DNA from: Candidatus Methylomirabilota bacterium
GTDB lineage: Bacteria > Methylomirabilota > Methylomirabilia > Methylomirabilales > Methylomirabilaceae
Assembly: GCA_028870115.1 (NCBI GenBank)
Contig: JAGWQH010000103.1
Span: forward strand, 1 to 64,000
DNA: 64,000 nucleotides
Direction of reading: 5' to 3'
The notes below the pieces were generated by a model. The model saw only the letters and a program-made list of their open reading frames with translations. It was not told the DNA's origin and searched no databases. A program made the translations under genes and the position numbers. Below are positions 3,996 to 52,531 of the stretch, one piece after another (the stretch's first letter is position 1; each line of letters starts with the position of its first letter).

Positions 3996-4007
3996 AATCG
4001 TGACCTC

Positions 4008-5042: not shown

Positions 5043-5077
5043 GCGTCCTCCGCTCTCCCCACCCCCCAACCCCTGCT

Positions 5078-7231: not shown

Positions 7232-7246
7232 CGCTGAAACTCTCTG

Positions 7247-9007: not shown

Positions 9008-9010
9008 CGT

Positions 9011-10483: not shown

Positions 10484-10509
10484 GCCGCTCTCCTATTCAT
10501 CACGTTCTC

Positions 10510-11124
10510 CTAACCACCGACCTCGTCGTTCACGACGATCCGCGGATCCCGGGTCAGCGCCTCCAGGTCCAGAACCGCGATCATTTCTCCCGTAATGCTT
10601 CGGATGCAGGCCTGGCGACCGGCGCTGAGGGTCGCTGGAGGGGGCGCGATCTCGTGAGCCGCCACCCGGATGGACCCTGCCACGGCGTCGGCGAAGATCC
10701 CGAACGTCATCCCTCCAGCCTCCACCGCCACAACCCGGCCCCCCTCGGTGATACCTTGCCCAGGCAGATTGAACAGCCTTCGGAGGTCCAGGACCGGCAG
10801 GATGCACCCGCGGTGGTTGACTACGCCGAGAATGACCGGCGGCGTGCATGGCACAGGCGTCAGCTCCCGGAGAGAAATCACCCCCCTGACGTGAGCCGTC
10901 TCAATGCCGTATCGCTCCCCCGGAAGCGAGAAGACCAGCAAGTCAAGAACCTCTGCAGAGGTTCGGACCTCCACCAAGGGCTTCGCCAGCGCTTGAGCTC
11001 GGCCCCTCAAGATTCGCTTCACCTCTTCAGGGAGAGGACTCCCGCCGGCTTCCAGAGTCCGCCGTGTTTGCTCCAGCCGGGAGTGGGTCACCTGCCAGTT
11101 GACCGCCGGTCGAGTCTCGTTCAT
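10510..11124 (-). CDS. cheW: CheW-like coupling protein (with N-terminal extension)
   Basis: 204 residues. A 50-residue charged N-terminal extension precedes a CheW domain (about 55-200) containing LPGERYGIETAHVRGVI and ILGVVNHRGCILPVLDLRR, both hallmark segments. It links receptors to the CheA homologue. The ATG overlaps the cheR stop by four bases, indicating translational coupling. It corresponds in position to WspD. The extra N-terminal segment sets it apart from the shorter cheW at the start of the operon. Confidence 0.92.
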   Translation of the reverse strand: MNETRPAVNWQVTHSRLEQTRRTLEAGGSPLPEEVKRILRGRAQALAKPLVEVRTSAEVLDLLVFSLPGERYGIETAHVRGVISLRELTPVPCTPPVILGVVNHRGCILPVLDLRRLFNLPGQGITEGGRVVAVEAGGMTFGIFADAVAGSIRVAAHEIAPPPATLSAGRQACIRSITGEMIAVLDLEALTRDPRIVVNDEVGG

Positions 11125-12518
11125 GAGGGCATCTCCAGATACGCCCTGGCAGTCTCAAGAAGCCGGCCCGCGGTCAGGCCGTCGCCGCCCGCCACCGCTT
11201 CTTCGCGCGGGACGGAGTTCAGTAAACTCACGACGGTCTCCATGGAGCGCCGCCCCCGCTTGCGCTGTCCCTGCCGAAGGAGGAGGCTGCCCAGAAGAAA
11301 GTGGGCGGCGGCGGAATCCGGGGCCAGGTAGATGGCCCGTCGAAGGGCTTCCAGAGCCAAAGGGATTTCTCCTCGCTCATGACAGACCGCGGCCAACAGC
11401 AGGTGGGCCCCGGGGTCCAGCCGATCCTGCACCAGCGCGGCCTCGCACAGCTCGCGAGCCGCCTCAAGCTTACCTTGGTCAGCCAGGGCCTGGGCACGCT
11501 GGAGATCGGATGGCGTCTCTGGCGGCGCCTCGGTTAGCTTCGTTTCCGAGAGTATAAGCGGATCCGCTTGCTCCATGTGCCGTGGCTCTTGCATTGGACT
11601 GTCTGCCACTCTCCACCCGCTGTCCACCTCCGGCGCGGAGTTGAAGTCGGAAAGCGGAAGGTTAGCGGCGAACTCTTCCCCCTTCCGGTAAAGAATGGCG
11701 GCGCGGAAAGTAACAGTCACCAGAGGGTGGTAGAGTTCGACTGACGCCTCGGCAGGGCTCACCGCCAGCCATCCTCCCCTCACCAGCGCCCGTTCGAGTA
11801 GGACCGTGGCCGCCTGTTGAGCCTCACGAGTGAAATACATGAGGACGTTGCGACAGAGGATCAGGTCCACAGCGCTCGTGTTGGTCACCACACCCGGATA
11901 GCCATCCTTGGCCAGGTTAAGCGGTGCAAAGGTGACCATCCGCCGAATTCTCGGATCCACCTCGAACGTCTCCGCGCTCAGGCGGTGGAAGTATCGATCC
12001 CGGATCCACTGGGGAGTCTCCCGGAAGGACCATTCCCGGTAGCGCCCTCGCCGCGCTGTCTCAAGAGCATCAGGGTTAATGTCGGTGGCCAGAATCGTGA
12101 GGGCCCAGTCGGCGAGATCGGGGAGCAGGCGATCCAGCAGAATGGCGAGGGAGTAAGGCTCTTCTCCCGTCGCGCATCCGGCGCTCCAGAGCCGGAGCCG
12201 TCGGTTTCTCTCCGTCCGGCGGCCGGTAATGAGCGATGGGAGAACGTGCTGCTCCAGCGCCTCGAAGAGGGCACCATCGCGGAAGAAATAGGTCTCGCCT
12301 ACGGTCAAGTGGCTCGCCAGCCGCCTCCACTCCGCGCTCTCATCCGGTAAGGTTGCGAGCCAGGCCAGATACGTCTCCGGCGCGGAGACGGATGAGGTGT
12401 GACAGGCTTGGACGAGACCCCTCTCCAAGTCGGCTTGACGTCCCCTGGAGAAGTCCAGGCCCAACCGGCCGGCAATAAGCGTCTGCGCCTGAAGGTACAA
12501 CTCCTCTGACAGCCTCAA
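11121..12518 (-). CDS. cheR: CheR-type receptor methyltransferase with C-terminal TPR domain
   Basis: 465 residues. The CheR N-terminal helical domain and catalytic domain (about 1-275) contain LTVGETYFFRD, the SAM-binding stretch LWSAGCATGEEPYSLA and ILCRNVLMYF. A linker then leads to at least two TPR motifs (about 345-430, with ALADQGKLEAARELCEAALV). It methylates receptor glutamates using S-adenosylmethionine. CheR with TPRs is the WspC/FrzF arrangement. The start appears to be TTG overlapping the stop of the upstream cheW by four bases (TTGA); no better ATG is near. Confidence 0.93.
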   Translation of the reverse strand: MRLSEELYLQAQTLIAGRLGLDFSRGRQADLERGLVQACHTSSVSAPETYLAWLATLPDESAEWRRLASHLTVGETYFFRDGALFEALEQHVLPSLITGRRTERNRRLRLWSAGCATGEEPYSLAILLDRLLPDLADWALTILATDINPDALETARRGRYREWSFRETPQWIRDRYFHRLSAETFEVDPRIRRMVTFAPLNLAKDGYPGVVTNTSAVDLILCRNVLMYFTREAQQAATVLLERALVRGGWLAVSPAEASVELYHPLVTVTFRAAILYRKGEEFAANLPLSDFNSAPEVDSGWRVADSPMQEPRHMEQADPLILSETKLTEAPPETPSDLQRAQALADQGKLEAARELCEAALVQDRLDPGAHLLLAAVCHERGEIPLALEALRRAIYLAPDSAAAHFLLGSLLLRQGQRKRGRRSMETVVSLLNSVPREEAVAGGDGLTAGRLLETARAYLEMPS

Positions 12519-13030
12519 TTCTCTAACTCTTCCAAGGCTGTCGTGAGGCGTTGTTCTTCATTCAGCGAGAGGCATGCTTCCACATCGTGGATGAAGAGGA
12601 GGCCGTCAGCGAGCGAGACGATCCCCGCCACGTGACCGATCCCGGGGAGGAGCGCGTCCGGCCGGGTAATGGTCTCCTGTGCAACATCCCTCACCCCCAA
12701 CACCTCGTCGGCCGTCAAGGCCAGGATTCGCCGGCTCGTCCGGACCATCAGCAGGCGGGCAGTCAGGCCGTAGTCGCGGAGGGGCAGACCAAGGCGGCGC
12801 CGGAGATCGATGACCGGAATAACCTGGCCATGGAGGTTCATCACGCCGAGAACCACCGCCGGGGCCTGCGGGAGCGGCGATACTTCGACCATCGGCAAGA
12901 CCCGCTCAACGTTGTTGAGAGGCACTGCATAGCGCTGCCCCTCGATGTCGAAGACGACCAACCGAAGTGTAGAGCTCTGAACGTCTTGATCGGACCTGTC
13001 TGTCAGCCAGGCAGGCAGATCACGCTTCAT
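12515..13030 (-). CDS. cheW: CheW-like coupling protein, first gene of the chemosensory operon
   Basis: 171 residues, mostly one CheW domain (about 22-160) with YAVPLNNVERVLPMVEVSP and LGVMNLHGQVIPVIDLRR. It couples receptors to kinase. It opens the minus-strand operon and corresponds to WspB in order. No strong ribosome site precedes the ATG; a direct repeat TGATCTTGC occurs just upstream. Part of its sequence is duplicated as the relic near 1.6 kb. Confidence 0.92.
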   Translation of the reverse strand: MKRDLPAWLTDRSDQDVQSSTLRLVVFDIEGQRYAVPLNNVERVLPMVEVSPLPQAPAVVLGVMNLHGQVIPVIDLRRRLGLPLRDYGLTARLLMVRTSRRILALTADEVLGVRDVAQETITRPDALLPGIGHVAGIVSLADGLLFIHDVEACLSLNEEQRLTTALEELEN

Positions 13031-30185: not shown

Positions 30186-30941
30186 ATGCGAGTAGAAGCG
30201 CAACGGGTGGCGGTGATCACCGGCGGCACCAAAGGGATCGGCAAAGCGATCGCCTACCGCCTCGCCCAGGATGGGTGCGATATCGTCCTGAACTATCATG
30301 GCGACGACGGTGCAGCCCAATCGGCCCTCCGGGAGTTCGATAGCCTCCCCGTCAAGACGATAGCTGTGAAAGCGGATGTCTCCACATCGGCCGGCGCGTC
30401 CCTTGTCATCGAGACGGCAGTCAGCCAACTCGGCTCTCTTGATGTCCTGGTCAACAACGTGGGGCCGTTTTTCGTGCGGGCCTTATCCGACACTACCGAT
30501 GACGAATGGCGACGAACCCTGGACAGCAACCTGAGCAGCGCCTTTTATTGCAGTAGAGCGGCCCTGCGGGTCATGCGAAAGCGGCGGGCCGGCAGCATCA
30601 CCAATATCGGGGCGCTCAATGTGGAGCATTCGCCGATTGGGGTCTTTGAGGCCCCAGTCTACTACATCGCCAAGTCCGGCGTGATCATGCTGACCAGATC
30701 GTTGGCACGATCCGAAGCGCCATGGGGCATCCGAGTGAACGCCGTCAACCCCGGTTTCATCGAAACCGAAACCTACGGTCAGTATCGCGCCGAGGATAAA
30801 GCTGCCTGGACCAGAATGATCCCCCTCGGTCGATTAGGCACGCCTGGCGATGTCGCCGAGGCGGTGAGTTTCCTGGCGTCCGACAAAGCGCGATATGTGA
30901 CAGGGGCGATCCTCCACGTCCACGGCGGCCTCTGGGTGTAA
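30186..30941 (+). CDS. Short-chain dehydrogenase/reductase, candidate pterin reductase of the H4MPT pathway
   Basis: 251 residues. The Rossmann motif is GGTKGIG (13-19), NNVG is at 90-93, and the catalytic pair is Y159 and K163 (YYIAKSG). The usual catalytic Ser about 13 residues before the Tyr is absent; the region reads NIGALNVEHSP. Some pteridine reductases (PTR1 type) also replace that Ser. The gene leads a four-gene run with H4MPT-type biosynthesis genes and overlaps or abuts the next one (TAATG). A dihydromethanopterin reductase role is therefore plausible, but other SDR reactions remain possible. Confidence 0.8.
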   Translation: MRVEAQRVAVITGGTKGIGKAIAYRLAQDGCDIVLNYHGDDGAAQSALREFDSLPVKTIAVKADVSTSAGASLVIETAVSQLGSLDVLVNNVGPFFVRALSDTTDDEWRRTLDSNLSSAFYCSRAALRVMRKRRAGSITNIGALNVEHSPIGVFEAPVYYIAKSGVIMLTRSLARSEAPWGIRVNAVNPGFIETETYGQYRAEDKAAWTRMIPLGRLGTPGDVAEAVSFLASDKARYVTGAILHVHGGLWV

Positions 30942-30961
30942 TGAGCGAATGCAGGGGGCGC

Positions 30962-32302
30962 ATGAAGATCCTCTTCATTACCGGCAAGCTGGCCGAGCGC
31001 GCCCTGAAAGAGACGCTGGCCGGCATGCAGGCCGAGTTCGACCACGAGGTGGCCGTTCTCAAGATCAGCGTGGCCGCCCTGATGACTACGCCGTTCATTC
31101 TCCATTCGCTTCGGTCGCCCAGCGCTGATCTGCTGATGATCCCTGGACTCTGCCGCATAGAACCTCACGAGTTGGAGCAGTCGCTGGGCGTGAAGGTCGA
31201 AAAGGGGCCCAAGGATCTGCGTGATATCCCCTACTACTTTGGCGTAGAGAAGCAACGGGAGGGGTATGGCGGGCACGATCTGACCATCCTGGCCGAGATC
31301 AACGACGCCCCCACCCTGCCGGTCGGCGAGATCCTCAGCAAGGCGCGCTACTACGCGGCCTGCGGCGCGGATGTCATCGACGTCGGTTGTACACCGGGGC
31401 AACCGGCCGGCAATGTTGGCGAGATCGTCTCGGCGCTTCGGTCCGAAGGGTTCCGGGTCAGCATCGACAGTTTCGATCCGCAGGAGATCCTCGCCGCCGA
31501 CAAGGCCGGCGCCGAACTGCTCCTGAGCCTGAACGCTCAGAACCTGCATCTGGCCCCGGATCTGCAGTGTACCCCGGTGATCATTCCCGACTTCGGCAAG
31601 GGGCTGGATTCCCTCGCGGCAAATATCAAGGCGGTAGAGCGCCTGGGCGGCCGACGATACCTCATCGACCCGATCCTCGCGCCGATCAGCTTCGGTTTCG
31701 CCGAATCGCTCGCTCGCTACGCTGAGGCGAGGCGTCGCTTCCCGCAGGCAGAAATCCTCATGGGGGTGGGGAACGTCACCGAGCTGACCGATGCCGACAG
31801 CACCGGGATCAATGCGCTGCTCACCGGGGTGATGTCGGAGCTACAGATCCGCTATGCGCTCACCACCGAGGTGGCCTCGTGGGCCAGGGGCTCTGTCCGC
31901 GAATTGGATCTGGCTCGCCGTCTCATGTATTACGCCCGGCAGCACGGGGTGTTGCCGAAAGATATCGACGACGGCCTGCTTACCATCAAGGATCGGCGGA
32001 TCGATTGCCCGTCAGAGGCGGAGCTGAGGGAGATGCAGCGGATGGTAACGGACCCGAACTTCCGGATCTTTGCCGACCGAGAAGCCATCTATGTGTTTAA
32101 TCGCGATCTCTTCATCAAGGAGACCGACATCCGCCGGATCTTCGACCAGCTCACGACACACCTCGGCCCGGAACCGATCGGCCACGCCTTTTACCTGGGT
32201 CGCGAGCTGATGAAGGCGAGGTTGGCGATGCTGCTCGGGAAGAAATATATTCAAGAAGACGAGCTGAAATGGGGATATCTTAACTATGACCTACCTCAAT
32301 GA
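30962..32302 (+). CDS. Dihydropteroate synthase-like protein (DUF6513-type) of H4MPT biosynthesis
   Basis: 446 residues from the ATG after AGGGGGCGC; an ATG seven codons earlier overlaps the SDR stop. The N-terminal domain (about 1-140, MKILFITGKLAERALKETL) is specific to this family. The central part is a pterin-binding TIM barrel resembling DHPS, with DVIDVGCTPG (near 140), VSIDSFD, SLNAQNL and DPILAPISFGF. Homologues are found in archaeal-like C1 clusters of methylotrophs and Planctomycetes. It probably joins the pterin and ribofuranosyl-aminobenzene parts, or a related step. Confidence 0.85.
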   Translation: MKILFITGKLAERALKETLAGMQAEFDHEVAVLKISVAALMTTPFILHSLRSPSADLLMIPGLCRIEPHELEQSLGVKVEKGPKDLRDIPYYFGVEKQREGYGGHDLTILAEINDAPTLPVGEILSKARYYAACGADVIDVGCTPGQPAGNVGEIVSALRSEGFRVSIDSFDPQEILAADKAGAELLLSLNAQNLHLAPDLQCTPVIIPDFGKGLDSLAANIKAVERLGGRRYLIDPILAPISFGFAESLARYAEARRRFPQAEILMGVGNVTELTDADSTGINALLTGVMSELQIRYALTTEVASWARGSVRELDLARRLMYYARQHGVLPKDIDDGLLTIKDRRIDCPSEAELREMQRMVTDPNFRIFADREAIYVFNRDLFIKETDIRRIFDQLTTHLGPEPIGHAFYLGRELMKARLAMLLGKKYIQEDELKWGYLNYDLPQ

Positions 32303-32327
32303 AATGCAGGCGCAAGGGGACAGGGCT

Positions 32328-32879
32328 ATGATTATTGAGAGTATCGTCACAACGATGAATGAGGCGGGAGAGGCGAACTTCGCGCCGATGGGGGTCACCA
32401 TCGACGAAGGGGAGATCGTTATCCGGCCCTATACCGATTCGGCCACCTGTCGGAATCTTGTCGCCACCAGTGCTGCTGTCGTCAATCTGACCGACAACTG
32501 CCGGCTGTTCGCCGAAAGCGCTATCACCAGCCCTCAGTTTCCGACCTTTCCGGCTGAGCTTATCACCGGCCTTGTGTTGACCGACGCCTGCTCGTATTAC
32601 GAGTGTTCAGTCATGTATGCCGATACCGCCACGTCGCGCGCGACCTTCCGCTGCAAGATCATCAAGAAGGGGGTGCTGCGGGAATTTATCGGGTTCAACC
32701 GGGCGAAGAACGCCATTATTGAGGCGGCCATCCTCGCCACACGGGTCCGGTTCATGGAAGTGGACACGATCCTTCAGGAGTATCGCCGCCTGTCCGAGAT
32801 TGTGCAGAAGACCGGGGGTGAGCAGGAAGCCCTGGCGATGCAATACCTCCAGAACTACGTGGAGCGGCAGCCTCAATGA
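32328..32879 (+). CDS. DUF447 family protein (flavin-reductase-like fold)
   Basis: 183 residues from the ATG that follows AAGGGG by eight bases. Starting here gives the usual family N-terminus MIIESIVTT; an ATG 14 codons earlier overlaps the upstream gene. Conserved FAPMGV, CRNLVATSAAVVNLTDN and RAKNAIIEAAILATR are seen. DUF447 proteins occur in methanogens and in H4MPT-containing bacteria, with a split-barrel FMN-binding-like fold. A role in cofactor synthesis is expected but the reaction is unknown. Confidence 0.82.
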   Translation: MIIESIVTTMNEAGEANFAPMGVTIDEGEIVIRPYTDSATCRNLVATSAAVVNLTDNCRLFAESAITSPQFPTFPAELITGLVLTDACSYYECSVMYADTATSRATFRCKIIKKGVLREFIGFNRAKNAIIEAAILATRVRFMEVDTILQEYRRLSEIVQKTGGEQEALAMQYLQNYVERQPQ

Positions 32880-33865
32880 GGGTGACGGTTAAGGCCCATG
32901 CCAGGCTTCACTTCGGCTTCATCGACCCCGATGGCTCATCGGGTCGACAGTTCGGGAGCATCGGGCTGTCAATCAACGAACCCGCGATCATACTCGAGGC
33001 CACGCCGGCAGATCGCCTCTCGGCCGCAGGGCAAGAGCGGGATCGTGTCCTCGCATTGGCCCGCCGCTTCCTCCGCCACTATAATATTCGCCACAGGGCA
33101 CACATCGCCGTCAAAACAACTATCCCCGCCCATGCCGGCCTAGGCTCGGGAACGCAACTTGCGCTCAGCGTCGCTTCAGCGCTGGCTCGCCTTTTCTCCA
33201 TCAACGCCGATGTTCGGAAGTTGGCGGCCGTGATGGGCAGAGGGGGTCGGTCGGGGATCGGGATCGCTGCCTTTGAGCGGGGCGGTTTCATCGTGGACGC
33301 CGGACGGAGGGTGAGCATGGGTAGAACAGTGGAGAGCGAGTTGAAGCGCATTGAAGCACGGACCTCAGGGCTCCTCCCTCCAACGATCGTTCGCTATCCC
33401 CTTCCGAGGGAGTGGACCTTTGTTGTGGCGGTCCCACACGTTGGTCATGGGCTCACCGGAAAAAAAGAGGTCCGGGCGTTTCACCGGCTCGCCGGCCGTC
33501 CTGCCGACGCGGGACGACTCAGCCGAATCGTGCTCATGCAGATGCTCCCGTCGGTGCTTGAGCGCGACCCTATCGTCTTCGGTGAGTCGCTTACCAGGAT
33601 TCAGCGAATTGTTGGAGCATGGTTCCAATCCGTCCAAGGCGGAACGTTCGCCACCACGCAGGGGGCGGCGCTGGTCAAGGCGATGTCGCGGGCTGGGGCG
33701 TTAGGGGTCGGGCAGAGTTCCTGGGGACCGGCGGTCTATGGACTGGCGAAGGATCAGGAGATGGCCGCATCGATTATGGGAAGGATGAGGACAATCGTCC
33801 CGCACAAGATCAACGCCGATATCTTTCCGGTAAGGGCCTTCAATCGAGGGGCCGACATCCGCTGA
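32876..33865 (+). CDS. Beta-ribofuranosylaminobenzene 5'-phosphate synthase (beta-RFAP synthase)
   Basis: 329 residues, ATG overlapping the DUF447 stop (ATGA). This GHMP-kinase-fold protein has ARLHFGFIDPDGSSGRQFGSIG at the N-terminus and the glycine loop HAGLGSGTQLALS. GRGGRSGIGIAAFERGG is typical for the family. It condenses p-hydroxybenzoate (or p-aminobenzoate) with PRPP, releasing CO2 and PPi, the committing step of methanopterin synthesis. It is the strongest marker that this organism makes its own H4MPT. Confidence 0.93.
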   Translation: MRVTVKAHARLHFGFIDPDGSSGRQFGSIGLSINEPAIILEATPADRLSAAGQERDRVLALARRFLRHYNIRHRAHIAVKTTIPAHAGLGSGTQLALSVASALARLFSINADVRKLAAVMGRGGRSGIGIAAFERGGFIVDAGRRVSMGRTVESELKRIEARTSGLLPPTIVRYPLPREWTFVVAVPHVGHGLTGKKEVRAFHRLAGRPADAGRLSRIVLMQMLPSVLERDPIVFGESLTRIQRIVGAWFQSVQGGTFATTQGAALVKAMSRAGALGVGQSSWGPAVYGLAKDQEMAASIMGRMRTIVPHKINADIFPVRAFNRGADIR

Positions 33866-42668: not shown

Positions 42669-43544
42669 TCAACGTGCGCTGCCACCCAGCACAAATTCGC
42701 CCCCCCGCTCCAACGCCACCACAAAGAGCGCCGAGGCGGTCAGGTCCGCGGTGGTCCCCGGATTGAGTCGGTTGTCGTCTCTGCGGAGAGCGCGATCCCA
42801 ACGCCGAAGTCTTCGCCAACCCTGCTCAGTATAGACCCCGCCGATAGCGAGGATCTTGCCCGCCTCCCGCGAGATCCTGGCGGCCTCGCGCGCTCCGCAT
42901 TTACGCGCAATGAGCGAATCCGGTACGCGCGACAGCAGCGTCAGACAGGTCTGAATGACCGCAGCTTCCGGATCGCCTGACTCCCGGAGAGAGCGCTCGA
43001 GGGTCGGAGCACCGATGGTAAAGGTAATCTCGAAGTCGGTAACATACTCGCGCGCGATCGAATCCCGATCAGCCGACGCGCGCATCGCCTCAAGGAGCGG
43101 CACCCTGCCATGCGTTGCCCGGACATCCAACTGATCCGCCTGTCCGAGGCCGCCGGGTGCTGCCAGGCGAATCGCCTCGTAAACTCGTTGTCCATCGTAG
43201 GGCGTGAGGGCAGTCAGCACACTCCGAAGGCTGGACCGAAGGGATCGGCGTCCTTTGCGCAAGGCCGCCTTTGCCAGCGGAACAAAGAGGAGCGCGATAC
43301 CAAGGTTGGTGTTCCGGCCGACCAGCCGCTTCGTCTCTCGAACCGCGTCAAGGACCAATGAACCGATCGCTACGGTGGCCGCTTTCCGCAGGACCTGTCC
43401 AAGGACGATGGAACTGGCGAGAAAATCGGTATAGCGCGTATCGGCGAAGTCGGCGAATGGGGTAACGTTCCCGGGCTTATCGGCGCTCACCTCCAGGAGG
43501 CAGGCGAGTTGAGCAGCGAGGGAGACTTTGTCGGCCGGCGACAT
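42669..43544 (-). CDS. CitG/MdcB-like triphosphoribosyl-dephospho-CoA synthase family protein
   Basis: 291 residues from the ATG that follows AGGGATAGACTG; an earlier start would fall in a repeat element. Family features are CLLEVSADKPGNVTPFADFADTRYTDF near the N-terminus, TNLGIALLFVPLAKA and the late GAREAARISREAG. In citrate or malonate lyase systems this enzyme makes the CoA-derived prosthetic group, but no lyase is present here. Homologues occur in C1 clusters of methylotrophs, suggesting a ribosyl-transfer role in H4MPT or methylofuran synthesis; the substrate is not known. The gap to the upstream gene on its right holds a repeat; the 200-base gap on its left has nothing recognisable. 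Confidence 0.82.
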   Translation of the reverse strand: MSPADKVSLAAQLACLLEVSADKPGNVTPFADFADTRYTDFLASSIVLGQVLRKAATVAIGSLVLDAVRETKRLVGRNTNLGIALLFVPLAKAALRKGRRSLRSSLRSVLTALTPYDGQRVYEAIRLAAPGGLGQADQLDVRATHGRVPLLEAMRASADRDSIAREYVTDFEITFTIGAPTLERSLRESGDPEAAVIQTCLTLLSRVPDSLIARKCGAREAARISREAGKILAIGGVYTEQGWRRLRRWDRALRRDDNRLNPGTTADLTASALFVVALERGGEFVLGGSAR

Positions 43545-43578
43545 CAGTCTATCCCTAGCACAGGTACATTTGCGTGGC

Positions 43579-43682
43579 GTCATTGCGAGGGAGTACCGCG
43601 ACCGTGGCAATCTCCAAGTTCTGTAATAGTGTCCCTGTAAGCTGAGAACGGTGAGATTGCTTCGCCTGCGGCTCGCAATGAC
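43579..43682. repeat. Dispersed inverted repeat (GTCATTGCGAG family), copy 2
   Basis: Arms GTCATTGCGAG (43579-43589) and CTCGCAATGAC (43672-43682), with inner GGCAATCTC and GAGATTGC also complementary. Same family as 17406-17482. It separates the CitG-like gene from the ATP-grasp gene. Confidence 0.85.
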
Positions 43683-43699: not shown

Positions 43700-44569
43700 T
43701 TATGGTTGCAGTTGCCTGAGCAGGTGATCGGCGACCTCTTGAGCGATCTCGATCTCCGTAGTCCGCTGCAGGCCGGACCAGCCGGGAATGCTGTTGACCT
43801 CCACAACCGTGTAACCGTGAGAGGTCTGAAGCAGGTCGATCCCGGCATAATCGGTCCCGAGGAGTCTACTCGCTTCGAGGCAGAGACCGGTTGCCTCGTC
43901 ATCCATAACGTGAGGCTCCGGTCGCGCACCCTGAGAGACATTATGCCGCCACCCTTCCGACCGCCGACGCATGGCCGCAACCACCCGATCTCCGATCACC
44001 AGACCCCTCAGATCGTAATCGCCATGCGGGACAAATTCCTGGATGTAGAAGATGCTCCGAGTCAGCGCGAGGGCGCGAAAGACTCGATAGGCGACATCGG
44101 CGTCGCAGAGTCGCATCATCCCTCTTCCCCCGGCGCCGAAAAGCGGCTTGACGACCACGTCGCTAAGTTCGTGGAACGCCGCTATCGCCTCGTCGAACCC
44201 CTCAGCTACTATGGTCTTCGGAGTTGGCAGGCCGCGTGACGCAAGCAGACTGGACGTATAATACTTATCGACGGTCTGTTCCAGCGGGCTCGGCCGATTC
44301 ATGATCCGAATCCCTGACGCTTCCAGACGGTGCAGTGCGTTCATCCTGAAGACGATCTGCTCTAATGACCCTTCCGGAATCGTTCGAACCAGCAGTGCAT
44401 CGTACGATTCGAGGGGTTGGCCATCGATCGCGACAAGCGGATCACCTGGAGCGCGGGCCACCAGCCGGGTAATCGGCAAAAAGTCGGTCTGGCAACCGCG
44501 TCGCGCCAGCGCCTTCGCAAGGGCCTCGACGTGCCACGCTTTTCTATCGGCGAGGATCCCGATCTTCAT
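43700..44569 (-). CDS. RimK-like ATP-grasp ligase, probable glutamate-adding step of cofactor synthesis
   Basis: 289 residues. ATP-grasp elements: the P-loop-like VVKPLFGAGGRGMM, the metal ligands in DLLQTSHGYTVVEVNSIPGWSG, and the preceding NRPSPLEQTVDKYYTSSLL typical of RimK/MptN. Archaeal MptN adds glutamate to tetrahydrosarcinapterin. In bacterial C1 clusters the homologue may add glutamate to H4MPT or methylofuran. It lies downstream of mch, separated by a repeat. Confidence 0.85.
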   Translation of the reverse strand: MKIGILADRKAWHVEALAKALARRGCQTDFLPITRLVARAPGDPLVAIDGQPLESYDALLVRTIPEGSLEQIVFRMNALHRLEASGIRIMNRPSPLEQTVDKYYTSSLLASRGLPTPKTIVAEGFDEAIAAFHELSDVVVKPLFGAGGRGMMRLCDADVAYRVFRALALTRSIFYIQEFVPHGDYDLRGLVIGDRVVAAMRRRSEGWRHNVSQGARPEPHVMDDEATGLCLEASRLLGTDYAGIDLLQTSHGYTVVEVNSIPGWSGLQRTTEIEIAQEVADHLLRQLQP

Positions 44570-44722: not shown

Positions 44723-45673
44723 TCAACTAAGGAGAGAAGTCTGGAGCAGTTCGGCATTGAAGCGCCCGGCCCTGAAGGTTCGGCCGCTGGCGGCATTGGT
44801 AATGGCGATCTTGGCCGGACTGAAGAGGAACGGATCGATCTTGTAGAAGTCGCCGTCATACCGCTTAAACAGGTCGCGGAACAACTGACCATAGTCCCGC
44901 GACGCGCAGGACGGAATCTTATCGATCAACGCCGCGATCTCGTCATCGGTCGACGACACCGTCAGATAGACCTTGCTGCCGTACAACACACAGTCGTTGG
45001 TCCGTCCGATAGCCGTCAGATCGTCGGCAGAAGGGGTGGCAATAGGACAGGTTCCAAAGCCACTGAGCGTCTTGGTGACGTCAAAGTCGAGTTCGAACAG
45101 TTTGTGCATGGCGGTCTCGACCGACCGCGCCGCAATCTGTACCGCGCCGGCTACACTTCGCGTGGCCGCGACCGCCAACGAGACCCGATCCGGCTTGACG
45201 CCGCACTTCTCGGCCACGTACTCGGCCACCTCTTCATCCGGCAGTCGCCCGCTCTCCAGCACCAGAACTGCTGAGTCGGCGTCGTCCCGGATGCGGATCG
45301 TTTCGTAGAGCTCCTCGGTCCTGGCCAGCGCCCGGGCTGGCCCCGACCCCATCCCGAAAAACTTCCCGCGATGGACCCGCCAACCGGCATACTGTGAACC
45401 AAGGCACGGGAGCACCGGACCGTCGATCGCCACGCTGATGCCGGAAAACGAGAAGTCGCCATAATCCAGCGGAAGGAACGAGACCTCCCCAAGTCCGCCG
45501 AGGCAGATCTCCGCCAGCCCTTTCCCCGCCAGCAACCCCCCCGGCACCTTGACCCCAAGATCGACGAGTCTGGCACCGTTCTTCAACGTCGAGACCGAGA
45601 TCCCGAGCGCGGAGGCTCGAGCCGACATCCTATTAAGAATCTCAACCGCCTGGCGATTCAGACTGAGCGACAC
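44723..45673 (-). CDS. mch: Methenyl-H4MPT cyclohydrolase (Mch)
   Basis: 316 residues, GTG start with GGAGG eight bases upstream. The full length matches Mch, including SLNRQAVEILNRMSARASALG, LPCLGSQYAGWRV, FGMGSGPARAL and GFGTCPIATPS. It interconverts methenyl-H4MPT and N5-formyl-H4MPT in the cytoplasm. It follows fhcC by 13 bases. Confidence 0.97.
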   Translation of the reverse strand: MSLSLNRQAVEILNRMSARASALGISVSTLKNGARLVDLGVKVPGGLLAGKGLAEICLGGLGEVSFLPLDYGDFSFSGISVAIDGPVLPCLGSQYAGWRVHRGKFFGMGSGPARALARTEELYETIRIRDDADSAVLVLESGRLPDEEVAEYVAEKCGVKPDRVSLAVAATRSVAGAVQIAARSVETAMHKLFELDFDVTKTLSGFGTCPIATPSADDLTAIGRTNDCVLYGSKVYLTVSSTDDEIAALIDKIPSCASRDYGQLFRDLFKRYDGDFYKIDPFLFSPAKIAITNAASGRTFRAGRFNAELLQTSLLS

Positions 45674-45686
45674 AGCCGTATCCTCC

Positions 45687-46496
45687 TCAGGCGGCGATCA
45701 GGATTTCGCCCTTACCGACATCGGCCAGGTCCCCATGGTAGCGTCGAACCAGGCCATTCGTAGGAACGGGAGGCTCCACCCCAAGTTGCGTGAGCCCTTT
45801 GAACAGCATTCGGAGAAAGACCGGCGCATAGGTGCAGTCGTAGGCAAAGGTCGGCAGCAGGTCAACGGGCCGCAGGCAGACGATCGTCCCCTTCTGCATT
45901 CCACCTCCTGTCCTGATGCCTGCCTGGCCAAACAGACAGATCGTCCCGTTCGTCATCATGGCTCCCAGGAAGTCCTCGGCATTCCCTTTGATGACGATGA
46001 GGCCTCGCCGCATATAGGCGCCCACTTCATGCCCGACGTTCCCCCCGACTATGATAATCCCGCCCTGCATGCCGTACTTGCTGCCCCGATAGGCGGCTCC
46101 GACGCGATGCCTGGCATTACCCGTGACGCGGATCAGCCCACCTTGCATTTCGACACCGAGGAAATCGTCGGCATTGCCTTCGATGAGGATCTCGCCGCCT
46201 CGCATGTACGACCCGGCATGCATCCCGGCATCGCCACGGACGACGACCCGACCTCGCGTCATTCCGGAGCCGATCCACTTCACCCGTCCCGCGCAGCCCT
46301 CAATGATGATCTCGTCCGACCGCTCCCCCTCGACCTTGAAGAAGTCGCCAAGTCGGTGGCTCTCATTTCCCAATGCGACGGGCATCGCCTCGATCTCGGC
46401 CTGGCTGCGCTCGACGAACAGATCGGGCGAGATCGACTCAGCCTCAAGCGGGATATTCGTCGGAATCTCTTTTGTATGAAGTACGACTGGTGACAT
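45687..46496 (-). CDS. fhcC: Formyltransferase/hydrolase complex subunit C (FwdC-like)
   Basis: 269 residues. After a 70-residue start comes a GXGXG beta-helix domain built from repeats such as GRVVVRGDAGMHAGSYMRGG and GLIVIKGNAEDFLGAMM, as in FwdC and glutamate synthase alpha C-termini. The tail (about 220-269) fits the FhcC type. It is structural in the Fhc complex. AGAGGG precedes the ATG. Confidence 0.96.
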   Translation of the reverse strand: MSPVVLHTKEIPTNIPLEAESISPDLFVERSQAEIEAMPVALGNESHRLGDFFKVEGERSDEIIIEGCAGRVKWIGSGMTRGRVVVRGDAGMHAGSYMRGGEILIEGNADDFLGVEMQGGLIRVTGNARHRVGAAYRGSKYGMQGGIIIVGGNVGHEVGAYMRRGLIVIKGNAEDFLGAMMTNGTICLFGQAGIRTGGGMQKGTIVCLRPVDLLPTFAYDCTYAPVFLRMLFKGLTQLGVEPPVPTNGLVRRYHGDLADVGKGEILIAA

Positions 46497-46512: not shown

Positions 46513-46552
46513 AAATCAGCTGTCAGCGATCAGCCTTCAGCTAATAGCTGAT
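46513..46552. repeat. AGCTATCAGC-type repeat at the fhcC-fhcD junction
   Basis: ATCAGCTGTCAGCGATCAGC with further TCAGCTAATAGCTGAT forms an imperfect dyad. It covers the 33-base gap and reaches into the last codons of fhcD, so the C-terminus of FhcD is partly repeat-encoded. Confidence 0.6.
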
Positions 46553-47444
46553 GGAGGTGAAAGTGATGTTTTCCCAGCTTTCCGCCGTAGTTACCGGCGG
46601 AGATCTTCATGACACCTGGACCGCACGCGGCTCGAATACCAACCCGCATGGCCTCTCCTACCGCCTCCGGCGTCAGGCCATCGATGACGATCTCAAGGAC
46701 CGCCCCGACCCCTTCCGGCAGTTCACTCCGGACCGCCCCTCTCAGCGATGGACAGAAAGCCGTGTTGCTTGAGGCATTGAGGAACTTGTAGCGGGAGCCA
46801 ACCTTACTGCCGGATCTGACGATACCGCCGGGGAAGGGCATAATCACGCCTCGCACCTTTCGCATCGCCTCAATTGCCCGCTCCGCGCCCTGCAGGGTTC
46901 CGGACAGCTCGCTTCCCAACAACAAGAAGTTGCCGCCGGCGACACCCTTTTGTACGCCGAACCGGTCTTCGACAATAAACTCACCGTCCATTACAGGAAT
47001 CCGCCAGAAACGGCGAGGTCCGGTCCCATTGCCGGTCATCCGCGAGTCGAATCGTTTGCTGATCTGAAATCCGTCGCCGAAGAACTTGAGCTTGCCCCCT
47101 ATCGACAGACGATCTTCCGCCTCCAAGGCGTTGTAACAGGCCGAGGAAGGAGCGGTCATCACGCACTGGCCGATCCGGTTGATAAGCTGCTCCTGAACCG
47201 CCTTTTTTGACATGGCAAACAGCAGCACACTTACGCCGGGGCGGTCATCAGGAGTCTCCTGAGGCTCGATCCCCTCGATACTCACTTCACAGCCGCAGCC
47301 AATGACTGACGTGCCGAAACCTGCCATGCTCCGCGCCGCCTCCAGGGCCCACGCCTTGCTGCACGCGGTAATCAGTACCCGGCCGGCATAAGCGCCGAAT
47401 GCCTCTGCATATGTCTCGTCGATGCAAACACCATTAATCTCCAT
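46530..47444 (-). CDS. fhcD: Formylmethanofuran:H4MPT formyltransferase (FhcD/Ftr)
   Basis: 304 residues, the length of archaeal Ftr. It contains INGVCIDETYAEAFGAYAGR at the start, GFGTSVIGCGCEVSIEG, and MPFPGGIVRSGSKVGSRYKF, all family hallmarks. It transfers the formyl group from N5-formyl-H4MPT to methylofuran within the Fhc complex. Neighbours are fhcA upstream and fhcC downstream. The last few residues overlap a repeat. Confidence 0.97.
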   Translation of the reverse strand: MEINGVCIDETYAEAFGAYAGRVLITACSKAWALEAARSMAGFGTSVIGCGCEVSIEGIEPQETPDDRPGVSVLLFAMSKKAVQEQLINRIGQCVMTAPSSACYNALEAEDRLSIGGKLKFFGDGFQISKRFDSRMTGNGTGPRRFWRIPVMDGEFIVEDRFGVQKGVAGGNFLLLGSELSGTLQGAERAIEAMRKVRGVIMPFPGGIVRSGSKVGSRYKFLNASSNTAFCPSLRGAVRSELPEGVGAVLEIVIDGLTPEAVGEAMRVGIRAACGPGVMKISAGNYGGKLGKHHFHLHQLLAEG

Positions 47445-47471: not shown

Positions 47472-49112
47472 TCATCGAGGCGCTCCCACAGGGATCGCCT
47501 CTCGGTTGGGGATGTCCTCAATATCGATTGGGAAATTCTGGTACCGGATCGTATAGTAGTTTTCGAATTCGGTCTTAAAGGTCGGATCCATCTCGCCGAC
47601 TTCAGGCGGGATAACAAACAGCGTCTTCCCGTCAGGGCTATGAACGATCTCACCATCTCGAAGGACCATCTCTCCGCCCTTGATGACATAGACCGGGTGC
47701 TCAAACATCTGTTCCTTATCGCTATCTTTGGAATAGATCGTAATGTCGGCATCCGCTCCGACCCCCAGGTGGCCCTTGTGCGTGAGCCCCAATGCTCTCG
47801 CTGGACCCGCCCTGGAGATGATGGCAATCTCATTCAGGGTGTACTCACGGTCAAGGGACGACAGGATGGTCTCGGGCATCACACGCTTGTGAACACGCTT
47901 CAGCATCTCATCCCGGAACGGTTTGTCCATGAGCAACCTGATGATCCAGGGATAGAAGTAGAAGGGACCGCCGTTGGGATGATCGGTGGAGAGGAACACC
48001 CGCCACGGATCACGGATCAGGAGAAAGAGCTCCAGCCCAATGGCCCATTGAAGGGCGTTCACAAAGTTATTCTCTCGATATGTGTACGGGACGATCCCGC
48101 ACCCTGACTCTACCTCTATGTCCTGGTTGTACCACTTATTCTTACTGAGCTTGTACAACCGGTACTGCCACGGGCCGTCCGCCGTGATGGTAGTGGCATC
48201 GCCGAAGACGATCTGACCGATGTCCGTCGTGATGTTGGGATGGGTGTTGATATACTCCGCGATTTCAGTCGCCTTTGAGCAGAAGCCGCCCCAGTTTTCC
48301 CCGCCGTAACTGTGAAACTGCGCGTGCGCCACGTGGAGCCGTGCGCCCTCGAGCGTCCGCATCGTGTCTAAGGTCGTCAGGTAATTATTGGGTGTGCCCA
48401 GGCTATTGGCGTGCAGGTGGATCGAGTGAGGCAACCCGAGGCTTTCGTTGGCCCAGGAGAGCGCCTTCAGAATCTGGCGCGGCGTCACGTCGAAATAATG
48501 GACCTTGTCGTCAAGATTCGCGATATCCTTCCCGTACTTCCACTGCTCTACCCCGCCGGGGTTGACCAGTTTCACGCCATAGGCCTTCAACGACCGGAGG
48601 AGCCAGGCGACATATCGCTTGACCTTCTCCATCTCGCCGGCCTTGATGAACTTCAGAATAAACTCATTACTCCCCAATTCGATATACAGCCCCTTATCTA
48701 CGATCGGGATGTCGATCAACTCCTCATGGGTATGCCGAACGCCGATGGGGGCGTTTGCGCCCTCCATCACCGTGGTATAGCCCATCTGAGCATACAGGTA
48801 GCCGGTCGCAAATGTAGAAGGGACCGTAGAACCAACGCCGGATCTCATGCCGGGTTTCGCACTGAACAGCATATGCCGGTGGTCCTCCGGCCTGAACCCG
48901 CGAGCCGCGTTGACCGCCGGACTGCCGATGTGGGTATGAATATCGACACCACCTGGCATAACCACCAAGTTACTGGCGTCAATGACCTCGGCAGGCGCGG
49001 TGCAGGACTCTACGATCTTTCCATCCTCAACACAGATCTCTTTAATGGTCCCATCGATCCCGTTCGCCGGGTCGTAGACCTCGCCGCCGACAATTCGTAA
49101 TGAGCGTCCCAT
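47472..49112 (-). CDS. fhcA: Formyltransferase/hydrolase complex subunit A (FwdA-like amidohydrolase)
   Basis: 546 residues. Amidohydrolase fold with metal-binding H59 and H61 (GGVDIHTHIG), a central lysine/histidine region with SIHLHANSLGTPNNY, and the STDHPNGGPFYFYP segment carrying the catalytic Asp. It hydrolyses formylmethylofuran to formate (or the reverse). It lies 11 bases after fhcB. Confidence 0.96.
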   Translation of the reverse strand: MGRSLRIVGGEVYDPANGIDGTIKEICVEDGKIVESCTAPAEVIDASNLVVMPGGVDIHTHIGSPAVNAARGFRPEDHRHMLFSAKPGMRSGVGSTVPSTFATGYLYAQMGYTTVMEGANAPIGVRHTHEELIDIPIVDKGLYIELGSNEFILKFIKAGEMEKVKRYVAWLLRSLKAYGVKLVNPGGVEQWKYGKDIANLDDKVHYFDVTPRQILKALSWANESLGLPHSIHLHANSLGTPNNYLTTLDTMRTLEGARLHVAHAQFHSYGGENWGGFCSKATEIAEYINTHPNITTDIGQIVFGDATTITADGPWQYRLYKLSKNKWYNQDIEVESGCGIVPYTYRENNFVNALQWAIGLELFLLIRDPWRVFLSTDHPNGGPFYFYPWIIRLLMDKPFRDEMLKRVHKRVMPETILSSLDREYTLNEIAIISRAGPARALGLTHKGHLGVGADADITIYSKDSDKEQMFEHPVYVIKGGEMVLRDGEIVHSPDGKTLFVIPPEVGEMDPTFKTEFENYYTIRYQNFPIDIEDIPNREAIPVGAPR

Positions 49113-49123
49113 GTCGATTATCC

Positions 49124-50479
49124 TCAGCCTCTACCGGCCGGGGCGGGAGCGGCATTGCTATGACTCTTTATCGCCTTTATCTTTGCGATAATGCGCTCAA
49201 GGATCTCCCGATCCGATGGGTAGGGTGACTCAACCACCTTTTTGAACAACAGGGGGATGTGATCCATCCTGTACGCCATTCCTCCGGCACCGATGGCGCC
49301 CTGCGCCGACGGAATCACGATGTCGGCGACTCTGGTCGTATCGCTCTCTTTAGGATCGATGGCAATCAGCGGGATTGATTTGAGATGCTCCCCCATACTG
49401 CCGGGAAAGTTCCCGATGGCGTCACCCGCGATCACTAGCGACGCATCGATCTCTTTACGGGCCAACATATCGACTACAGAAAATTCTCCGGGGTTGAATC
49501 GGGGATAGCCGCGACTCATGTTGACGTGGAACGGAAAGCCGGTTTGCCATGTCAGCACCTGTGCCATTCCCACCACATTCCCGTGACCCCTCATCGCCGC
49601 GCACGAAAACTTTGTAAACTGGTTGAGATCTTGAGCGAGCTTGAGCAGCGCAACAAGATTCAGGTATTTTCCTCTGGTCTGGGTCAGACCCATCCCCCAA
49701 TAGATGATCCCGAACTTGGCGCTCTTCATTTTCTCTACAAGCGCTTTCAACTCATCGACTGGTATGCCTCCAACCTCGGCCTGCGGCAGTTCGTGGCCCC
49801 TCACAAGCGCCCTGAGCGCAGAGATGACCTCGTAGTCGGAGTTCGGTTTCATCTGGATAAAGGCGTCGGCGATTCGTGTGGTCGGCGTCGGCCTGACATC
49901 GACATGAATGACCATCCGGTCCTTCTTACCCTTGGGGGTGAACATCCCCTTGACGGTGACCGAGTAACGAGTGGCGTGCCGTGGGTGAGCCTCGGCCGGA
50001 TTACAACCCCAAAAGATCACCAGATCGGCCCGGTTCTTCGTCTCTCCAGACGTGCAGGTCGGGATGCCGACGGTCATCACCGCCTGATAGCTCGGCGCGT
50101 GACAGACCGAGGAGGTATGGTCGATATTCGCACCGATCAGATCGGCCAGCTCGATCGACGCCCGCTGCGCGCCCAGCTCGGTCGAGTCGAGTCCATAGAT
50201 GAGGGGGTACTTGGCCTTGGCGAGAATCTCTGCCGCCGCATCGATGCACTCATCAACCGTCGCCGGTTTTCCATGAATCCTCGGGGTCGACAACCCCTCC
50301 AGGTGATGGAGAAAGGTGGCTTTACCCAGGACGCAGGCATTCTTAACCTCTACGATCTTCCCATTCTCGACCTTGACCTCAAGATCGTCACACGTCACAC
50401 CGCAGAAGGGGCACACGACGCCCGTCATCACATACGGTTCTTTCACAGCCGGTTCTTTCACGGCAACGCTCTCAGCCAT
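49124..50479 (-). CDS. fhcB: Formyltransferase/hydrolase complex subunit B (FwdB-like molybdopterin protein) with intact Fe-S and active-site cysteines
   Basis: 451 residues from the ATG after GGAGG; a TTG three codons upstream is also possible. The N-terminus has the [4Fe-4S] motif C23-P-F-C26-G-V-T-C30-D-D and a fourth cysteine C49 (NACVLG). The segment SSVCHAPSYQ holds C126, at the place of the Cys or Sec that binds Mo/W in archaeal FwdB. In methylotrophs such as Methylorubrum, FhcB is described as lacking these metal sites. Together with the FwdD-like gene it overlaps by eight bases, this suggests a catalytic formylmethanofuran dehydrogenase subunit. Confidence 0.93.
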   Translation of the reverse strand: MAESVAVKEPAVKEPYVMTGVVCPFCGVTCDDLEVKVENGKIVEVKNACVLGKATFLHHLEGLSTPRIHGKPATVDECIDAAAEILAKAKYPLIYGLDSTELGAQRASIELADLIGANIDHTSSVCHAPSYQAVMTVGIPTCTSGETKNRADLVIFWGCNPAEAHPRHATRYSVTVKGMFTPKGKKDRMVIHVDVRPTPTTRIADAFIQMKPNSDYEVISALRALVRGHELPQAEVGGIPVDELKALVEKMKSAKFGIIYWGMGLTQTRGKYLNLVALLKLAQDLNQFTKFSCAAMRGHGNVVGMAQVLTWQTGFPFHVNMSRGYPRFNPGEFSVVDMLARKEIDASLVIAGDAIGNFPGSMGEHLKSIPLIAIDPKESDTTRVADIVIPSAQGAIGAGGMAYRMDHIPLLFKKVVESPYPSDREILERIIAKIKAIKSHSNAAPAPAGRG

Positions 50480-50810
50480 GGCGTTCAACCTCCACCGTGA
50501 TCCCCTTCGAATCCGGCATCCCTGTAGCCTGGGTATCCGGACCGATCAGGGCGTTACTCAGTTCTCCATAAGGAATAAAGACGATCCCCTGCGGGATATC
50601 GGTTTTTTTCAATTTGACCACGATCGAACCGTAGTTCGATTTGACCCGCGCCTGAACCCCGTCCTGTAACCCTAACGCTTCAATATCCTTGAGGTTCATC
50701 TGCAAGGTCGAGACCTCGTCTCGGTACTCTTGGGCTTCCTTACCTAGATGGGCTGAACTTCCCTGCTTGGTCGATCGACCGGTAATCAATATAAACTGTG
50801 TTTCAGACAC
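50472..50810 (-). CDS. FwdD-like molybdopterin-dinucleotide-binding subunit
   Basis: 112 residues, GTG start with AGGAG upstream. One small double-psi-barrel domain with FILITGRSTKQG at the start, IPQGIVFIPYGELSNALIGP and the terminal DTQATGMPDSKG, all matching archaeal FwdD/FmdD. This domain caps the pterin cofactor of FwdB. It overlaps fhcB by eight bases, so the two are made together. Standard four-gene bacterial fhc operons do not include it. Confidence 0.88.
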   Translation of the reverse strand: MSETQFILITGRSTKQGSSAHLGKEAQEYRDEVSTLQMNLKDIEALGLQDGVQARVKSNYGSIVVKLKKTDIPQGIVFIPYGELSNALIGPDTQATGMPDSKGITVEVERHG

Positions 50811-50936: not shown

Positions 50937-51821
50937 TCAGGCGAAGAGCCGTCTCTGAGCAATCTCCAAAGCCTTATTCTCGTCAAGAACCACGAACTTC
51001 TCCGAGGTTCGGATGGTCTCGAGCATTTCGATCTCGACATCATATTTCAGGACCCCAACGGCGAGCGCGCCGATTCCCTTGATACCCGGCGCGATCTCTT
51101 TCAGATCATCATTCGGCGACAGGTTGTAGATGCCGGTCGGGGGAACGGCATTGACGTCGGCCACAAGCTTACCCGACGGGAGCGCTTTCAGAACCGCCTC
51201 TGAAATCATCTGCACGCCGGCCTTGCCGGTCGTCAGGATGACATCAGCGCTACGCAGATGCGAGATCTTCTCATCATCCGTCGCCATTGCGGCGCCCTTG
51301 ACTGAGCCTCCCGTCTGCGCTGATAGCCGTTGGGCCAGACGCTCGACGGCACTCAATTGTCTGGAACCGATAATCACTTCGGCCCCCAGCTTCACGCAGA
51401 GACTCGCCGCAACCGTACCCACGGGGCCCGTTCCGCCCGGGATGGCAACCTGTTTGCCGCGCAATCCGCCGAGCGCCTGCTCCGCCTTGGCAACCAGCGC
51501 CACAGCCGTCGTATACGACCCCTTGGGATCGATCATCATCGACACCTGGAAGGGGGGGAACATGCTCTTCACAGCGGTCTCACGGACCCGCTCGGCCGAC
51601 TCTATGTCGTTACCCCCGATAAAGAGCGCGCTAAACTTGGCGCCTTTCGGCCCACGGGAGAAGATGATATCCTGCACCAGAAGGACTGCCGACTCCTCAG
51701 TCACACTACCATATGGAATTACGGCGTGGAAACCCGCATCGTACGCCATGTTGATGTCAAATGGACTCGGTTGGGATTCCGTCGTCAAAAAATAGAGCAG
51801 GTGCTTTCGCTCTGTCGTCAT
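50937..51821 (-). CDS. mtdB: NAD(P)-dependent methylene-H4MPT dehydrogenase (MtdB)
   Basis: 294 residues. N-terminal pterin-binding part with HLLYFLTTESQPSPFDINMA, then a Rossmann domain with IPGGTGPVGTVAAS (127-140). It oxidises methylene-H4MPT to methenyl-H4MPT with NAD+ or NADP+. It lies between fae and the fwdD-like gene, with about 130 bases on each side. Confidence 0.95.
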   Translation of the reverse strand: MTTERKHLLYFLTTESQPSPFDINMAYDAGFHAVIPYGSVTEESAVLLVQDIIFSRGPKGAKFSALFIGGNDIESAERVRETAVKSMFPPFQVSMMIDPKGSYTTAVALVAKAEQALGGLRGKQVAIPGGTGPVGTVAASLCVKLGAEVIIGSRQLSAVERLAQRLSAQTGGSVKGAAMATDDEKISHLRSADVILTTGKAGVQMISEAVLKALPSGKLVADVNAVPPTGIYNLSPNDDLKEIAPGIKGIGALAVGVLKYDVEIEMLETIRTSEKFVVLDENKALEIAQRRLFA

Positions 51822-51951: not shown

Positions 51952-52446
51952 CTACGCGAATGGATGCTTGACCTTATCCTTCTGCGCCAGGATCTCACTC
52001 ATTGAGGGCTGCTCTGCCAAGGCCCGCGCGATCGACTCTTTGGTCGCCTTATAGTTGTAGTCGTAGATCTTCTTATTGTCATCGGCCTCCCAGTGGATGA
52101 AGACGCCGACCACGACCGCCAGGTCTTCAGCATCCTTGGCGGAGATCACGCCTTCGGCAACGCTATCCACCACTGCCTTCGCCACAGCCGCCTGGGCTGG
52201 GCCGAACATCTGGACCGCCTGCTTCGCGCCCTTGATCGTCACCTTGTTGAACATCACCGTCGCAGGCTTCGCCAGCAAATTCGGCGCTACGACCGCCAAC
52301 AGGGCGCTGTGTCCCGCACTCTGCTGAGCGAGACGCTGTGCGAAGACGGCGCCGACGGGACCGCTCTTGGGACCAATCATCAGGTCAATATGTGCCACCT
52401 CGTTGCCGTCACCCGCCAATGACTCGCCAACCATGATATCGCGCAT
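51952..52446 (-). CDS. fae: Formaldehyde-activating enzyme (Fae)
   Basis: 164 residues from the second of two close ATGs, which has AAGGAGGA at seven bases; the first ATG touches that site. It contains VGESLAGDGNEVAHIDLMIG with the catalytic His (H19), FNKVTIKGAKQAVQMFGPAQ and VFIHWEADD. It condenses formaldehyde with H4MPT to methylene-H4MPT. It is the first gene of the C1 operon and has a strong promoter, fitting its usual high abundance. Confidence 0.97.
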   Translation of the reverse strand: MRDIMVGESLAGDGNEVAHIDLMIGPKSGPVGAVFAQRLAQQSAGHSALLAVVAPNLLAKPATVMFNKVTIKGAKQAVQMFGPAQAAVAKAVVDSVAEGVISAKDAEDLAVVVGVFIHWEADDNKKIYDYNYKATKESIARALAEQPSMSEILAQKDKVKHPFA

Positions 52447-52531
52447 CGACATTCCTCCTTCTCCTTATTCACCCTTACCGGTTAAGTTTACCGCTCACAA
52501 CGATTTATCGTTACTCAGACACGAAGCTCAT

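Follow-up and report, generated by a model that had tools for sequence, protein, structure and literature searches.

Formylmethanofuran dehydrogenases of archaea (Fwd/Fmd; PDB entries 5t5i, 8rja, and 7bkb) combine FwdA zinc-site residues with a metal site in FwdB, a separate FwdD, and FwdC. Lys64 of their FwdA is conserved and may gate the passage between the two active sites, a role that is speculative (PMC11656701), and the oxidative direction is possible for these complexes (PMC11656701, PMC11493965). The bacterial Fhc complex is represented by the textbook hydrolase of Methylorubrum (6s6y); our comparison with it rests on PMC10100899, PMC7325909, and the 6s6y sequence. Bacterial FwdB has also been described: 149 bacterial hits have been reported, along with transfer from Archaea (PMC10100899), and the fwdDBA-ftr-fwdC operon of Hakuba Actinobacteria retains both the Fe-S domain and Cys118 (PMC7325909).

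This work examines a fwdD-B-A-ftr-C cluster from Methylomirabilota within a window of 64,000 nt, by which we mean the whole stretch of DNA that was analyzed. Like archaeal Fwd/Fmd, the cluster encodes all metal-site residues of the B subunit, a separate FwdD, the FwdA zinc-site residues, and FwdC. It differs in having Ftr inside the operon, a bacterial H4MPT cluster around it, no FwdG/F that we could find, and Ala in place of Lys64. With bacterial Fhc (Methylorubrum and five proteobacterial plasmid loci, L033-L037) it shares the order B-A-Ftr-C and nearby H4MPT genes, whereas the proteobacterial FhcBs lack the metal ligand and pocket, have no FwdD beside them, and in the case of 6s6y_B begin only after the Fe-S domain. 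The Hakuba operon is alike in gene order, in its Fe-S domain and ligand Cys, and in having no FwdF/G, of which none was found here; however, its genome was described as lacking genes for H4MPT synthesis and as having a Wood-Ljungdahl setting (PMC7325909), while the cluster in the window is of the C1-oxidation kind, accompanied by fae, mtdB, mch, and genes for H4MPT synthesis. Since bacterial FwdB and the fwdDBA-ftr-fwdC operon have already been published, the Cys cluster is not new in kind. What is new here is a candidate Sec/tungstate module and a changed residue at the presumed FwdA gate.

Gene content of the window

The window belongs to a 2.8-Mb genome (G000) placed with Methylomirabilota by its named relatives: REEB33, at 95% identity, CSP1-5, and one Methylomirabilis MAG. 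Gene order is bacterial, with fwdD-B-A-ftr-C set between fae/mtdB and mch (Table 1), and the B-A-Ftr-C operon with H4MPT genes, a trait of bacterial Fhc, is present. NCBIfam models for formylmethanofuran dehydrogenase subunits A, B, and C, for formyltransferase, for cyclohydrolase, and for Fae match the products, each with a score that exceeds the curated cutoff.

Table 1. Features of the cluster and of the second fwdB (window positions unless a contig is named)
Feature	Position	Strand	Basis or remark
CitG-like gene	42669..43610	-	Azospirillum H4MPT cluster has one too
MptN-like ATP-grasp, H4MPT glutamate ligase type	43700..44569	-	252 bits, below the 350 cutoff
mch, methenyl-H4MPT cyclohydrolase	44723..45673	-	NCBIfam
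fwdC/fhcC	45687..46496	-	NCBIfam
ftr/fhcD, formyl-MFR:H4MPT formyltransferase	46530..47444	-	NCBIfam
fwdA/fhcA, amidohydrolase subunit, 546 aa	47472..49112	-	TIGR03121 743 bits; Zn-site H59, H61, K181, D377 kept
FwdA Ala66, where archaeal gatekeeper Lys64 stands	48915..48917	-	FwdA comparison
fwdB/fhcB, 454 aa from TTG or 451 aa from ATG at 50479	49124..50488	-	TIGR03129 543 bits; PDB FwdB E 1e-131
Active-site R300 and H302 (MRGHGNV)	49583..49591	-	R288/H290 of 5t5i_B; G/S/A and G/A/T in proteobacterial FhcB
Metal ligand C129 and neighbor H130 (SSVCHAPS)	50099..50104	-	C118/H119 of 5t5i_B
[4Fe-4S] ligands C26, C29, C33, C52 (TTG numbering)	50333..50413	-	Aligned to C9, C12, C16, C35 of 5t5i_B
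fwdD, pterin-binding fourth domain, 112 aa	50472..50810	-	PDB FwdD chains, NF042908
mtdB-like methylene-H4MPT dehydrogenase	50937..51821	-	Pfam Mpt_N
fae, formaldehyde-activating enzyme	51952..52452	-	NCBIfam
H4MPT biosynthesis genes	30941..33865	+	DHPS-like 30941-32302; beta-RFAP synthase family 32876-33865
Second FwdB	G000:C65:3591-4913		68% identical to window FwdB; one frame break, TGA at metal ligand (SSV-U-HGPG)

In a phmmer search of the PDB, archaeal FwdB chains match the window FwdB at E values from 1e-131 (8rja_B) to 1e-103, with 5t5i_B at 2e-126, and the Methylorubrum chain 6s6y_B is far off, matching at 6.5e-15 and only from residue 72 onward. Foldseek likewise places 8rja_B and 5t5i_B above 6s6y_B; for this comparison only the overall fold of the AlphaFold model (ten rows) was used, as its mean pLDDT is 67.5 and it is weak at the cofactor loops. 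The ATG start is codon 4 of the TTG-started frame, and fwdD overlaps fwdB by 17 nt with the TTG start or by 8 nt with the ATG start. The identification of this small overlapping gene as fwdD, made in the preliminary description, agrees with five solved FwdD chains (E=2e-21 to 7e-14) and with NF042908 (E=6e-27), although the latter reaches only 94 bits against the model's cutoff of 175.

Metal-site residues and classes of bacterial B subunit

Site residues were mapped on 5t5i_B, the structure of M. wolfei FwdB. The cysteines first noticed in the sequence (C23, C26, C30, C49, and C126 in ATG numbering; C26, C29, C33, C52, and C129 from TTG) are real, and in the alignment with archaeal FwdB they fall on the metal sites of the reference. 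All four [4Fe-4S] cysteines, the metal-ligand Cys, and the His, Arg, and His of the archaeal pocket are kept. Across an alignment of 22 B subunits, every member of both Methylomirabilis FwdB types shows all four cysteines, with either Cys or Sec as the ligand.

The preliminary description had also contrasted this protein with Methylorubrum FhcB as lacking the metal sites and FwdD. Among the five proteobacterial FhcBs examined, that contrast holds for the ligand, the pocket, and FwdD but not for the N-terminal cysteines. These FhcBs, encoded on plasmids, keep all four of these cysteines but have Ala as ligand, Leu at the His119 position, and Gly, Ser, or Ala at the Arg288 position; their clusters contain no fwdD. 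Three of them score 152, 216, and 261 bits with TIGR03129 (cutoff, 328), versus 543 for the window protein. With Ala in these five, the ligand is not common to the other bacterial FhcBs examined. Because the four cysteines are found in both, the Fe-S motif alone is not diagnostic, whereas ligand, pocket, and FwdD do separate the types. FwdD adjoins every ligand-bearing FwdB examined for which the upstream sequence is covered. By these sequence features, the bacterial B subunits examined form two classes, having either the ligand plus FwdD or neither, so that it would be wrong to label all fhcB genes as hydrolase scaffolds. The deep placement of proteobacterial FhcB in our tree is flagged as long-branch and was left out of use.

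Distribution in Methylomirabilota

Nearly all genomes of the genus have a ligand-bearing Cys copy of FwdB. FwdD is found in 14 of 15 (the fifteenth, G027, is 80% complete), and the order fwdD-B-A-ftr-C-mch is kept across Methylomirabilis wherever the locus is long enough. Given this conservation and the E values above, the window FwdB and FwdD are not chance matches. In the wider phylum, most genomes are without a strong FwdB match, and one (G084) has a 48% relative. At the FwdA gatekeeper position, every Methylomirabilales locus that was read has Ala, and the archaea and proteobacteria that were read, as well as G084, have Lys.

CSP1-5 (L069:9779-11092) and a second genome (G023; L075:6508-7824) also encode a third FwdB-like family with four cysteines and Phe at the metal-ligand position, with no FwdD match within the stretch covered.

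A second FwdB with an in-frame UGA

Elsewhere in the genome of the window, a second fwdB is broken in frame only by a TGA that falls exactly on the metal ligand. An in-frame UGA occupies this position in six Methylomirabilis genomes, including G000 and G025, the latter of which we take to be probably M. oxyfera. The five other copies are 84 to 92% identical to that of G000 (one is cut by a contig end), and phylogenetically the Sec copies group as a single clade next to the order's Cys copies. The gene has the marks of a selenoprotein: UGA at a catalytic Cys, coding that goes on beyond it, and Cys homologs. The genome also encodes tRNA-Sec (65.9 bits; cutoff, 47), SelA, SelB, and SelD, with SelD itself containing an in-frame TGA (GAG-U-ACK); SelB is found in 15/15 genomes of the genus.

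The second copy has its own fwdD, and upstream lie a Mop molbindin (TIGR00638, above cutoff) and a TupA-like binding protein whose match to the TupA model is strong by E value (2e-63) but stands at 214 bits against a cutoff of 400. Five complete loci share the order mop-tupA-(porin)-fwdD-fwdB, and there is no second fwdA, ftr, or fwdC at the Sec locus. For cofactor synthesis, MoaA scores above its cutoff and the MobA model stays below its curated one. The second FwdD-FwdB pair, in which Sec would be the metal ligand, probably represents a W/Se isoform using the single FwdA/Ftr/FwdC set in common with the Cys pair.

It is highly improbable that the UGA is instead a nonsense mutation or assembly error in a pseudogene. 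A hairpin 3' of the TGA (GUCUGCAG-GGU-CUGCAGAC, 8 bp) occurs in five genomes, with one mismatch in G000, and makes a SECIS plausible; yet Rfam gives no SECIS family match, and the folding energy, which about 5 to 7% of synonymous shuffles equal in four genomes, is unremarkable in G000 and G025; the G000 value counts toward a pseudogene. Decay is visible as well: a degraded C-terminal fragment of a further fwdB lies 11 kb away (G000:C65:15980-16138), next to a porin gene that resembles the ones around the Sec operon, and the fwdD2 match next to the Sec fwdB of G021 (C51:4119-4424) contains TAG and TAA and may be frameshifted or decayed. Against these observations stand the identical codon position in six genomes, purifying selection downstream of the UGA (dN/dS, 0.05 to 0.14), the conserved operon, the full Sec machinery, and the presence of Sec in the same UHxP motif of archaeal FwdB (PMC13188914).

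That source discusses FwdB among methanogenic archaea and also notes a Methylomirabilota MAG rich in selenoproteins (PMC13188914); our literature search, of partial coverage, found no report of a bacterial Sec-FwdB. A close parallel is with the archaeon Methanopyrus kandleri, where a Sec and a Cys B subunit likewise occur in one organism; here, the organism is a bacterium and the Sec copy has Mop and TupA-like genes as neighbors. For M. kandleri, both a selenium-dependent and a selenium-independent formylmethanofuran dehydrogenase were reportedly described by Vorholt in 1997 (cited in PMC13188914). The Sec/tungstate module predicts that methane-oxidizing NC10 cultures depend on tungsten and selenium, and their published medium already contains both (PMC6094997).

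Search for an electron partner

The observation that no FwdF/FwdG gene is nearby extends beyond the immediate surroundings: the window and the rest of its contig contain no C-x2-C-x2-C-x3-C ferredoxin motif, and no ferredoxin-type motif was found near the Sec operon. A whole-genome search with a FwdG-like query returned NuoI of two complex I operons among the inspected matches, and a third, weak match; FwdG is a poor query that retrieves many irrelevant ferredoxins (PMC11493965). No ferredoxin was found in the 1.5-kb gap between ftr and fwdC of G084. An extra gene between mtdB and fwdD (CSP1-5, L025; also L030) was considered as a lead and set aside, as it reads as a short-chain dehydrogenase-like protein. 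A NarH-like protein is encoded far along C65.

In G025, the Sec fwdB is followed by genes for a NuoF-like diaphorase and an FdhA-like protein (L070:10004-14082), and G031 (L073) retains short remnants of NuoF-like and FdhA-like genes. The G025 locus is probably Damo_1134-1138, which has been listed as a formate dehydrogenase (PMC6094997). Because G000 does not have these genes at that place, they are a lead and not evidence.

Proposed function of the cluster

We consider the cluster likely to specify a catalytically active Mo/W formyl-(methyl/methano)furan dehydrogenase, operon-linked with a formyltransferase (FwdD-B-A-Ftr-C), that takes formyl groups to CO2. The preliminary description had read the complex as a true dehydrogenase, and the sequence tests support that reading, in that the ligand falls on the metal site and is not shared by the other FhcBs examined. 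In the proposed pathway, formaldehyde would be converted to formyl-H4MPT via Fae, MtdB, and Mch, and Ftr would transfer the formyl group from H4MPT to the furan cofactor. The FwdA zinc site would then hydrolyze the formyl-furan, and an internal cavity would lead the formate to the Mo/W-bis-pterin of FwdB/FwdD, which has C129 as its predicted ligand, for oxidation to CO2, with electrons leaving by the [4Fe-4S] cluster of FwdB. Oxidation is the most likely direction; both it and the predicted metal content and tunneling go beyond what gene order, site residues, FwdD, and conservation establish. If active, such a complex would close formaldehyde oxidation to CO2 in one assembly, with no free formate step and with low-potential electrons as a product, unlike the textbook Methylorubrum hydrolase.

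Site residues identical to those of solved archaeal FwdB, the presence of FwdD, genus-wide conservation, the Sec copy, and MoaA above its cutoff all argue for a dehydrogenase, and the Sec paralog with its tungstate-type genes is a stronger sign than the window sequence that the site is used. Published work points the same way: of three formyl/formate oxidation systems in M. oxyfera, Damo_0456-60 has the highest transcription (PMC6094997), and oxidation is possible for archaeal complexes (PMC11656701, PMC11493965). On the other side, no FwdG/FwdF or other carrier was found beside the cluster, Lys64 of FwdA is Ala, the NF042908 FwdD and MobA models score below their curated cutoffs, and AlphaFold is weak at the cofactor loops. 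Relatives also have separate formate dehydrogenases (PMC6094997), so free formate may still be made. The failure to find a carrier, these formate dehydrogenases, and the proteobacterial gene order B-A-Ftr-C would suit a hydrolase like Methylorubrum Fhc, in which the B site is an ancestral relic or holds a cofactor without turnover and formate is released for oxidation by separate enzymes; Ala at the Lys64 gate might even let formate escape. We judge this unlikely, given that nearly all members of the genus retain FwdD and every pocket residue, that ligand, pocket, and FwdD have been lost together in the proteobacterial FhcBs examined, and that purifying selection on a Sec paralog does not fit a relic well.

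A dehydrogenase running reductively, from CO2 to formyl-H4MPT as in hydrogenotrophic archaea and feeding assimilation, would use the same active-site chemistry as the archaeal complexes, and the window does hold a complete chain to methylene-H4MPT. This direction is nonetheless very unlikely: CO2 fixation in relatives goes through the Calvin cycle (PMC6094997), a ferredoxin of very low potential would be required (PMC11656701) where no carrier was found, and the fae/mtdB/mch context is oxidative.

Within the preferred oxidative dehydrogenase, a more tentative proposal, which we hold as possible but doubtful, is that one FwdA-Ftr-FwdC scaffold accepts interchangeable FwdBD modules, one Cys (Mo or W) and one Sec/W, switched by W/Se supply. 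Formyl groups would be oxidized to CO2 by way of an ungated formate channel, and something other than ferredoxin, for example an NAD diaphorase, would take up the electrons. If true, bacteria would be using a formyl dehydrogenase based on selenium and tungsten when they oxidize methane or methanol.

Apart from the C1 genes, the window contains a chemotaxis cluster (2058-13030) in which a methyl-accepting protein is split into two open reading frames, 9464-10483 and 9011-9427 (span, 9011-10483), as if frameshifted.
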